From Marinobacter iranensis (lineage in GTDB: Bacteria; Pseudomonadota; Gammaproteobacteria; Pseudomonadales; Oleiphilaceae): a stretch of DNA of 64,000 nucleotides. The notes beneath the pieces were generated by a model. It searched no databases. It was not told the origin of the DNA and saw only the letters and a list, made by a program, of their open reading frames with translations. Below are positions 28,341 through 44,081 of the stretch, in pieces. The translations under genes were made by a program, and so were the position numbers. Positions within the stretch are counted from its first letter, which is position 1. Every line of letters starts with the position of its first letter. The stretch is from NCBI RefSeq assembly GCF_029207565.1, contig NZ_JANCMW010000005.1:124001-188000 (forward strand), given 5' to 3'.

Positions 28341-28369
28341 AGCCCGCGCCGGTTTGGCCTGTGCGGGCT
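28341..28369. terminator. Hairpin between flgN and the convergent MshEN gene
   Basis: AGCCCGC and GCGGGCT arms with a 15-nt loop between the convergent stops. There is no clear T-tract, so it is a weak bidirectional terminator candidate. Confidence 0.5.
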
Positions 28370-29106
28370 CAGCGGGTATAGATCGTCATCTGTGAGTCCG
28401 GGTGAAAACGGATGTTGTCGATGGCAATGTTGCCCATGGACGGTCCCTGGCTGCCACTGACCCTGATATTGTCCATGCGGATCTGTTCAATCCTTTCCGG
28501 GAAAGCCATTGTCAGCCCCCCATCATCCCGAATGGCGTACCGGGGAACATCGTCCCGGTAGTGCACCCCGGAAATGGTCAGGTCGGAATCCAGGAAATTC
28601 AATACCGGCACGAAGATATTCGCCGTCAGCTTCAGACCTTCAACAACGTCCGGTTCCACCTGGCCCGCCCCGCCATCCTCCCCGACCATGGCTGACACAT
28701 TAGCGAGGCGCTCCATCAGGGTTTGATCACCCTGCCCGGAAACACCAGCCATTTCCTCATCGTTCAGTGGCGCAAACCCGGAACGTTCGTAGAGTTGGCC
28801 TGAGTTGCTGGTATCCCGGGAGTCATTTGAGGGGTTGCCCGCCGCGAAACTGATCAACGGCTGGAACGGCAGTACAGCCATGGTAACCAGCGCGGCCGCA
28901 TTTCGGTATCGGGACTGGTGCTTGAGGACACGGTGAAGCTCGCGTTCGGTAATCCAGCCAGACTGGACAAACACTTCACCCAATCGCTGCCCGGTCTCGC
29001 GCTGTAAACGCAAGCCCTCTTCAAGCTGGCTTTCGGAAAGGTAGCCACGGTTTATCAGCAACCGGCCAAGACGGGATTTTTCTTCGAAACCCTGACGGAT
29101 TTTCAC
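28369..29106 (-). CDS. Orphan MshEN-type c-di-GMP-binding protein with export-like segment and DUF6160-like motif
   Basis: 245 aa, function unknown. Residues 12-35 and 41-64 are two 24-residue copies of the MshEN pattern (RLGxxxxxxGxxxxxxLxxxLxxQ): each starts RLG, has Gly at position 10 and ends in Gln (Q35, Q64), with exactly 5 residues between them. MshEN domains normally sit at the N-terminus of GspE/PilB/MshE ATPases; here there is no Walker motif. A hydrophobic stretch at 69-89 (NAAALVTMAVLPFQPLISFAA) looks like an export signal or membrane anchor. Then comes LNDEEMAGVSGQG, a motif seen in exported DUF6160-like proteins, and a polar beta-rich tail. GTG start with GGAGG at 6 bp, a strong ribosome site. 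Lies next to flagellar genes but is transcribed convergently. Confidence 0.8.
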   Translation of the reverse strand: MKIRQGFEEKSRLGRLLINRGYLSESQLEEGLRLQRETGQRLGEVFVQSGWITERELHRVLKHQSRYRNAAALVTMAVLPFQPLISFAAGNPSNDSRDTSNSGQLYERSGFAPLNDEEMAGVSGQGDQTLMERLANVSAMVGEDGGAGQVEPDVVEGLKLTANIFVPVLNFLDSDLTISGVHYRDDVPRYAIRDDGGLTMAFPERIEQIRMDNIRVSGSQGPSMGNIAIDNIRFHPDSQMTIYTR

Positions 29107-29314
29107 GGTATGCCTCCACTCAGTTCACAGTGATTGCCGTACAACCTGGCCCGGTCAGACTGCATCTGTATCCATGATGCGTTAAAAGGTTAGCTGATAG
29201 TCATGAACTTCGCTGTGAATCTGCCCGACTTGACAAGCAATTTCTGCTAACATCCTGTTACATGCAGGAGCCCATGGCGACAGTATCGCAGCAAACATTC
29301 CCGGAGCTAACAAC

Positions 29315-43151: not shown

Positions 43152-44081
43152 GTGAAACACGTTCCCACTATCAACAAATCCGGACCGCAGCCCCAGAAAC
43201 TCGCCGCCCTCAGGCAGGCGCACCGGGAGTGGAATGAGTCGCCGGATGTTCTTACGCGACTGACCCGCAGGCTTTCCACGACCCTCAATCTGGAAACCCA
43301 ACTGGCCATACTGGCAGACGAAATTGGTCAGGTTGTTCCCTATGATCACCTGACCTATCGACATCAGATTACCTCCAGGGATTTTGTCTATGCCACGGGC
43401 ATGGGTGGCCCTCACCGCTGCGATTATCGACTGAATCTCGAGGGCAGCTTTTACGGCACGCTCTCGCTCAGCCGGCGACAGAAATTCACCGAACAGGAAC
43501 TGGAAGGTCTGGAGTTGATGCTTGCCGCGGCCATATGCCCTATTCGCAATGCCTGTCATTTTATTGCCATTGAGCAGGCAGCGCTGACCGACTCTCTGAC
43601 CGGCGTTCCCAACAAGCGCGCCATGGACGAGGCGCTGACCAGGGCCAGCTGCCTTGGTGAGCGGCATGGCGAGGAGTATTCACTGATCCTGTGTGACCTG
43701 GACCATTTCAAGCAGGTGAACGACCGCCATGGCCATGTGGTGGGTGATCACATCCTGAAACTGGCTGCTGTGGAACTTGAGAGGGCTGTGCGGAATTCCG
43801 ACTGCGTGTACCGTTTCGGCGGTGAGGAGTTCGCCATCCTGTTACCCCATACCGACGAGGCACACGCCCGGGTTGTCGGTGACCGGATCCGCGAATTCAT
43901 TAACACCATTACCGTGAACTGCGGGGATACCGATGTCAGTGTCACCGCCAGTTGTGGCGTGGCCATGCGCCTTCCAGAGGAGACTGCCGACCAGTGGGTG
44001 GCGCGGGCAGACGAAGCACTGTACCGGGCGAAGGACCATGGCCGGAACTGCACAAGGGTATTCGCCGCAATCGGTATCTGA
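43152..44081 (+). CDS. Diguanylate cyclase (GAF-like sensor + GGDEF)
   Basis: Makes c-di-GMP from two GTP. In the 309-aa protein residues about 30-145 look GAF-like (LTRRLSTTLNLETQLAILAD, DHLTYRHQ) and the GGDEF domain is about 150-305. The active-site loop is G223-G-E-E-F227, and an RxxD inhibitory site (R214NSD217) sits exactly 5 residues before it, so product feedback is expected. No signal peptide or TM segment, so cytoplasmic. GTG start with a poor ribosome site. The stop codon abuts the convergent rluB stop with no spacer. Confidence 0.93.
   Translation: MKHVPTINKSGPQPQKLAALRQAHREWNESPDVLTRLTRRLSTTLNLETQLAILADEIGQVVPYDHLTYRHQITSRDFVYATGMGGPHRCDYRLNLEGSFYGTLSLSRRQKFTEQELEGLELMLAAAICPIRNACHFIAIEQAALTDSLTGVPNKRAMDEALTRASCLGERHGEEYSLILCDLDHFKQVNDRHGHVVGDHILKLAAVELERAVRNSDCVYRFGGEEFAILLPHTDEAHARVVGDRIREFINTITVNCGDTDVSVTASCGVAMRLPEETADQWVARADEALYRAKDHGRNCTRVFAAIGI

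Follow-up and report, generated by a model that had tools for sequence, protein, structure and literature searches.

The c-di-GMP receptors closest to the protein analysed here are the secretion and pilus ATPases MshE, PilB, PilF and GspE, whose MshEN_N domain (NF053729; structures 5htl and 8pdk) is a 53-residue four-helix fold that carries all the ligand contacts. According to the part of Wang et al. 2016 (PMC5013675) available to us, the isolated 62-residue MshEN_N of MshE (residues 1-62) binds c-di-GMP at 0.35 uM, and MshEN is also known in fusions with REC, HD-GYP, CheA, CheX, cyclase, kinase and glycosyltransferase domains. In the membrane-associated protein NfrB of E. coli the domain likewise lies outside a secretion ATPase, at the C-terminus, where it acts on a glycosyltransferase domain and has been shown to bind c-di-GMP (available part of PMC8669469). 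LapD and Alg44, which use degenerate EAL or PilZ receptors, link a c-di-GMP receptor inside the cell across the membrane to a periplasmic part (available parts of PMC3032553 and PMC12564702). The DUF6160 (PF19657) and FilA (NF050077) proteins have an exported part of about 270-330 aa, with a VSGQ-type motif after the signal peptide and strands at the C-terminus. For Alg44, the topology used in our comparison is in part presumed.

The protein encoded at 28369-29106 of the window, by which we mean the whole 64,000-nucleotide stretch of DNA of the marine bacterium Marinobacter iranensis that was analysed, resembles each of these systems and differs from each. It shares the fold and the complete set of ligand contacts with the MshEN_N domain of the ATPases, but has neither MshEN_C nor an ATPase domain and passes at once into a signal-peptide-like segment. 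Whereas the MshEN of NfrB is C-terminal, here it is N-terminal and has a putatively exported partner; in contrast to LapD and Alg44, the receptor is an MshEN_N placed before a cleavable-looking signal; and unlike the DUF6160/FilA proteins, whose motif and C-terminal strands it shares, it would export a part of only about 157 aa, carries an MshEN head and scores below the curated cut-offs. This predicted architecture of a receptor head, an export segment and an exported-type tail is well supported by the comparisons that follow. The first-pass annotation of this DNA had suggested that the arrangement would be new; the fusion of MshEN_N with an export segment is supported here, but MshEN outside ATPases was already known (available parts of PMC5013675 and PMC8669469). 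No MshEN before a signal peptide was found among the papers listed for MshEN, c-di-GMP and signal peptides, a coverage that ends short of the supplementary fusion tables of PMC5013675, which may list one; nor is one described in the available parts of PMC12943098 and PMC8844925. The features of the locus are as follows.

28369..29106, minus strand: the whole MshEN gene, 245 aa, GTG start, with 80 named homologous loci
29113..29117, minus strand: ribosome-binding site GGAGG, 6 nt upstream of the GTG
28915..29073, minus strand: predicted MshEN_N c-di-GMP-binding domain, residues 12-64 (NF053729 E 4.7e-19; superposes on 5htl_B)
29002-29073, minus strand: MshEN motif I, residues 12-35, 24 residues
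28915-28986, minus strand: MshEN motif II, residues 41-64, 24 residues, separated from motif I by a 5-residue spacer
28903..28914, minus strand: basic patch SRYR, residues 65-68, between the last contact, Gln64, and the hydrophobic stretch
28843..28902, minus strand: h- and c-region resembling those of a signal peptide, residues 69-88, which include PFQP and a small-x-Ala site
28729..28767, minus strand: LNDEEMAGVSGQG, residues 114-126, a DUF6160-type motif near the start of the putative exported part
28381..28593, minus strand: putative exported beta domain, residues 172-242, from AlphaFold strands, with a FilA/DUF6160-like C-terminus

The gene (minus strand) is an intact reading frame of 245 aa. 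Profile searches with the protein found no ATPase domain, as had been claimed from the letters, and Walker A is absent because the 245-aa sequence has no GK pair; the ATPase domain with Walker A that marks the T2SS/T4P secretion ATPases (PilB/GspE) is therefore lacking. When the organism's own genome was searched with NF053729, two places were matched, this protein and a 585-aa secretion-type ATPase whose sequence has a GKT loop. On the window's contig but outside the window, a 520-aa frame has a weak MshEN match (contig C400, 95714-95947, locus L004) of 23.3 bits, just above the cut-off. Blocks are conserved in the aligned upstream regions of 12 Marinobacter genes, and no nameable motif was found in that alignment.

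The MshEN assignment is clear. NF053729 aligns over 53 of its 53 positions (67.9 bits against a curated cut-off of 38), while the protein is not among the matches of PF05157, Pfam's longer MshEN model. Both 24-residue motifs that the first-pass annotation had read at residues 12-35 and 41-64, exactly five residues apart, were recovered, together with the ligand-site residues it had seen at the RLG starts and the final Gln. Specifically, all 12 residues that contact c-di-GMP in V. cholerae MshE (available part of PMC5013675) are present, as R12, L13, G14, L28, L32 and Q35 in the first motif and R41, L42, G43, L57, L61 and Q64 in the second. In an alignment of 30 diverse homologues (A1), mean identity was 97% in the 12 contact columns compared with 59% in the other 41 domain columns, and a mean as high as that of the contact columns was not reached in any of 20,000 draws of 12 columns at random. 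R41 is M in 3 of the 30, and L32 is I or V in 5. Since some of the contacts also shape the fold, this conservation supports c-di-GMP binding without proving it.

The AlphaFold model of the protein (mean pLDDT 73.7, pTM 0.39) has a head of four helices, with block mean pLDDT values of 83-92 for residues 11-60, and can be superposed on MshE with bound c-di-GMP (5htl_B) with Z 8.1 and rmsd 2.6 over 60 residues. Foldseek with the whole model returned no match at E 0.001 or better, its top rows being MshE/PilF at E 0.06-0.3 and probability 1.00. Because MshEN_N 1-62 of MshE binds alone (available part of PMC5013675), the absence of MshEN_C is no obstacle, and we predict from the conserved residues that the head binds c-di-GMP. 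In the same part of that paper, a change of Gly11 (G14 here) abolished c-di-GMP binding, the G40I variant (G43 here) was not stabilised by the ligand, and Arg9 changes are cited as having effects on binding of at most fivefold, so that substitutions at R12 or R41 would test binding only weakly.

The hydrophobic, signal-like segment reported after the MshEN domain is present at residues 69-88. From Gln64 the sequence runs through SRYR, the hydrophobic stretch and P80 to a small-x-Ala site whose last residue is A88, after which a cut of the signal-peptidase-I type is predicted. Judged by simple rules rather than by a trained predictor, the region has what a Sec/SPase I substrate needs, namely a basic n-region, a short h-region and a small-x-Ala site. 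In alignment A1, R68, P80 and A88 are each found in 30 of 30 rows, and position -3 is occupied in all 30 by one of S, A, T, G and V; in a second alignment of 41 rows (A4), R68 and P80 are again without exception, A88 is replaced once, by G, and position -3 holds S, A or T in every row but one, where it is unknown. The spacing is fixed to within one residue: among 63 unique family sequences, a set that includes three loci with divergent tails or tails of another type (L077-L079), the last basic residue lies 4 positions past the Gln in 60 and 5 positions past it in 3. A hydrophobic segment within 30 aa of MshEN was found in 63/63 family sequences versus 0/35 other MshEN proteins (frames of at least 300 aa in loci from MshEN searches, with the fusion loci L114, L116 and L284 excluded), at a hydropathy threshold picked after the family had been seen. 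All 63 sequences also have a small-x-Ala site somewhere in the stretch, against 46.1 expected by shuffling; because such sites are already this common in shuffled sequences, only the invariant A88 column carries weight.

The first-pass annotation had suggested that the receptor may span the membrane. What holds of this is an export-type segment, and residues 69-88 resemble a cleavable signal peptide more closely than they do a simple transmembrane helix. The maximum 19-residue hydropathy, 1.72 in this protein and 1.16-2.03 across the family, is borderline for a transmembrane segment, so an uncleaved membrane helix has to be considered. The protein would then be a single-pass inside-out receptor with the segment as its permanent anchor, and c-di-GMP would change the shape or the partner binding of the periplasmic tail, for which LapD (PMC3032553) and Alg44 (PMC12564702) offer precedents in the available parts of those papers. 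We regard this alternative as possible and rather less than probable: it sits badly with the invariant small-x-Ala column, with the length of the uncharged stretch, which in 10 of the 63 family sequences is just 13-18 aa and so short for a membrane anchor, and with the existence of tail homologues that have ordinary-looking signal peptides.

The head and segment are not tied to one tail. They also precede short tails ending in F or Y (L079, L080, L086, L095 and L096) and tails with no Pfam match (L097 and L251). In L251 (870-1961, minus strand) three consecutive MshEN stretches stand directly before the signal-peptide-like segment; two stretches stand before it in L083 (7015-7722, plus strand), and also in L114 (520-2121, minus strand) and L116 (589-1965, minus strand), where the segment leads into a Beta-lactamase2 domain, a serine hydrolase domain (E 2.8e-21 and 4.6e-19, respectively). 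For three tail types we found a homologue without MshEN that has an ordinary-looking signal peptide instead, as judged by eye. The protein's own tail type occurs in this form in L238-L241, adjoining the full-length gene in four genomes. The L097 tail type does so in L302, 37% identical and about 4 kb from the L097 gene; no other genome among the 42 searched had a match to that tail. The hydrolase tail does so in L298, L299 and L300, the last of these in L114's genome, from a search in which 4 of 46 genomes matched. Of all the evidence that the segment serves as an export signal and that the head was added to it, this exchange of the head for an ordinary-looking signal peptide is the strongest.

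The tail itself had been singled out for carrying LNDEEMAGVSGQ, which is indeed present at residues 114-125 and can now be described more closely as a DUF6160-type motif. Block pLDDT in the AlphaFold model is 82-91 for residues 171-240. PF19657 (DUF6160) matched 12 of 20 tails at E up to 1 (best 0.0029), with the tail of this protein at E 0.068 over residues 111-126, and its score of 13.9 bits lies below the curated cut-off of 27. In the organism's own genome nine DUF6160 matches were obtained at E 0.01 or better, this protein not being among them, and the DUF6160 proteins of that genome carry a motif similar to LNDEEMAGVSGQG. The C-terminus of L077 aligns with that of FilA at E 0.012, and hhalign of a tail profile against seven DUF6160/FilA proteins gave E 3.9e-4, over only 26 C-terminal columns and with a probability of 35%. 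Among 6,493 ORFs, a set enriched in loci fetched as DUF6160/FilA matches, 19 of the 21 tail-profile matches with E 1e-5 to 1 fall in DUF6160/FilA loci. One protein of G163 (4014297-4014734, a 228-aa frame) matches both the tail profile (E 1.0e-6) and FilA (E 1.4e-7). The reverse search weighs against homology: a DUF6160 profile reached no family protein at an E better than 0.0015, and those that it did reach were interspersed with unrelated frames. On these comparisons the tail is probably a short relative of the DUF6160/FilA proteins, though below curated cut-offs.

A profile of the DUF6160/FilA proteins of L257, L260, L261, L263 and L268-L270 (A7) matched the PDB chain 9xfv_A, whose deposition describes a pilus-like filament of bacteria, with E 5.4e-6, through one stretch at each end of the fold that alone gave 0.015 and 0.56. 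This match suggests that DUF6160 proteins form surface filaments, and that the tail is a shortened subunit of the filament type or a partner of one. The chain sequence of 9xfv_A starts right after the position of the conserved VSGQ-type motif. This motif may be a processing site. With the tail alone, Foldseek found no match at E 0.001 or better and VIA-align no Z of 5 or more among the rows listed; the VIA-align comparison with 9xfv_A gave Z 3.1, rmsd 4.1, 68 aligned residues and 24% identity, which ties with unrelated rows. When the tail profile was compared with solved structures, the best rows were plant PR-10 proteins (E 0.022), a relation that we take as chance, and 9xfv_A followed at E 1.8. 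No functional paper on the FilA/DUF6160 pilus-like proteins was found among the papers listed for DUF6160, Fil genes and a cave pilus.

We propose, with the balance of our judgement close to even, that the protein is a cytosolic c-di-GMP receptor that governs how its own exported tail is inserted, processed or released. Residues 12-64, the MshEN_N head, would stay in the cytoplasm and bind c-di-GMP, and the segment after it would act as a Sec signal peptide that takes residues 89 onward to the periplasm or surface. Binding of the ligand would alter the segment's entry into the translocon or its cutting by signal peptidase, and the c-di-GMP state would in this way set how much of the FilA/DUF6160-like tail is released and how much is held at the membrane. 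Gating is proposed because helix 4 carries the contacts L57, L61 and Q64 and runs directly into the signal peptide; in the AlphaFold model this helix is unbroken from 54 to 88, with block pLDDT falling from 77 to 67 to 54 over residues 61-90. Both the route through helix 4 and the direction of gating are conjectural; from what is established about MshEN and Sec we would expect the tail to cross the membrane and c-di-GMP to bind the head in the cytoplasm. In a wider form the proposal would make MshEN_N before a signal peptide a general, portable and ligand-switchable export signal, used for a pilus-like subunit, a serine hydrolase and other exported proteins; this we offer tentatively, as an idea more apt to fail than to hold.

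A further explanation dispenses with control by the ligand: the tail would always be exported and cut, and the head would slow or localise targeting, dock the precursor to a secretion machine, or remain behind as a small c-di-GMP-binding fragment, and do no more than that. A stand-alone gene with no partner common to all lineages would suit such constitutive export, as would the MshEN-like domain of XpsE, which has been kept despite its lost c-di-GMP binding (available part of PMC5013675). We nevertheless think it unlikely, given that the ligand contacts are the best-kept part of the head and that the head occurs in up to three copies before the export segment (L251). A truncated PilB/GspE remnant or a chance motif, both named by the first-pass annotation as ways in which its reading could fail, deserves almost no credence, the pseudogene being ruled out by full-length homologues in 52/73 Marinobacter genomes and several other families, and chance by the NF053729 match (E 4.7e-19, 67.9 bits versus 38).

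To our knowledge, the targets of the c-di-GMP receptors described so far are enzymes, transcription, motors or stable transmembrane partners. If c-di-GMP does control release of the tail, a receptor domain at a fixed distance from an export signal, before several kinds of exported protein, would mean that the second messenger may act on export itself, and that an internal signal may directly control what exported proteins do outside the cytoplasm. Should the export signal also prove portable, the second messenger would directly control Sec export, or processing by signal peptidase, for each substrate individually. In addition, the analysis yields a list of predicted c-di-GMP receptors, from Marinobacter, Hahella, Thalassolituus, Oleispira and others, and would link c-di-GMP to the FilA/DUF6160 pilus-like proteins.

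The flagellar genes reported as adjacent are there in the window, where the gene is convergent with flgN and divergent from a cyclophilin gene, with FlgN, FlgM, FlgA, CheV and CheR on one side and cyclophilin on the other. Across the 36 loci compared, with gene names assigned partly by eye, clusters of cheR, cheV or flgA lie near the gene in 11, namely the window, Marinobacter and close relatives, Tamilnaduibacter, Vreelandella, Mangrovitalea and three MAGs; they are absent in the Thalassolituus/Oleispira group and the other families compared. A thioredoxin-reductase-like gene adjoins instead in 11/36 loci, of the Thalassolituus/Oleispira type, an mnmC-like neighbour is present in 15/36, with Hahella and Halospina having the mnmC side only, and the remaining loci have yet other neighbours. 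No partner gene common to all lineages was found among the 36 loci and, since the neighbours vary, the flagellar link is local and not general. The diguanylate cyclase said to lie nearby is also present, as a GGDEF protein of 309 aa at 43152-44081 on the plus strand (PF00990 E 1.2e-44), and nothing beyond distance was found to tie it to the gene at 28369-29106.

Finally we analysed how widely the protein is distributed. A search with the entire protein gave matches at E 1e-3 or better in 82 of 117 related genomes, many of these matches covering the MshEN part only, in frames of about 600 aa. Within Marinobacter, a homologue of full or nearly full length was found, with E 2e-66 or better, in 52 of 73 genomes, a count that includes the protein's own genome. 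The order-wide sample gave matches at E 1e-12 or better in 37 of 390 genomes, which represent 17 of 142 genera. The alignment extends at least as far as residue 232 in 34 of the 37, and in G106, G079 and G116 it does not do so in one piece. Among named genomes, 94 of 148 pattern matches encode relatives, of which 80 were kept; these are mostly from Marinobacter, then from Tamilnaduibacter, Halospina, Vreelandella, Mangrovitalea, Hahella, Thalassolituus, Oleispira and others, with several MAGs. The nearest among the matches listed are from Marinobacter algicola (88%) and M. salarius (87%), closer records possibly being absent from the set.

A profile of the first members (A2) matched in 161 of 369 genomes of the class, nearly all in long frames of ATPase size, and newly added G543, G663, G588, G534, G488 and G475. 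With a broader profile (A9), which already contained rows from G000, G106, G543, G588 and G534, matches ran through the segment in 6 of 274 genomes (G000, G106, G543, G588, G534 and G663) and were partial in G488 and G475. At the level of the phylum, profile A5 matched through the segment in 9 of 398 genomes, all in the protein's own order and several of them rows of A5 itself, and in 4 further genomes it matched the motif only. The arrangement of MshEN plus an export segment is rare. In three other genomes of Marinobacter (G058, G040 and G026) only short pieces of the tail were present. Those of G058 and G040 start with a contig's first base, and the piece in G040 (C100:1-105) contains one in-frame TAG and is perhaps a decayed or truncated copy.
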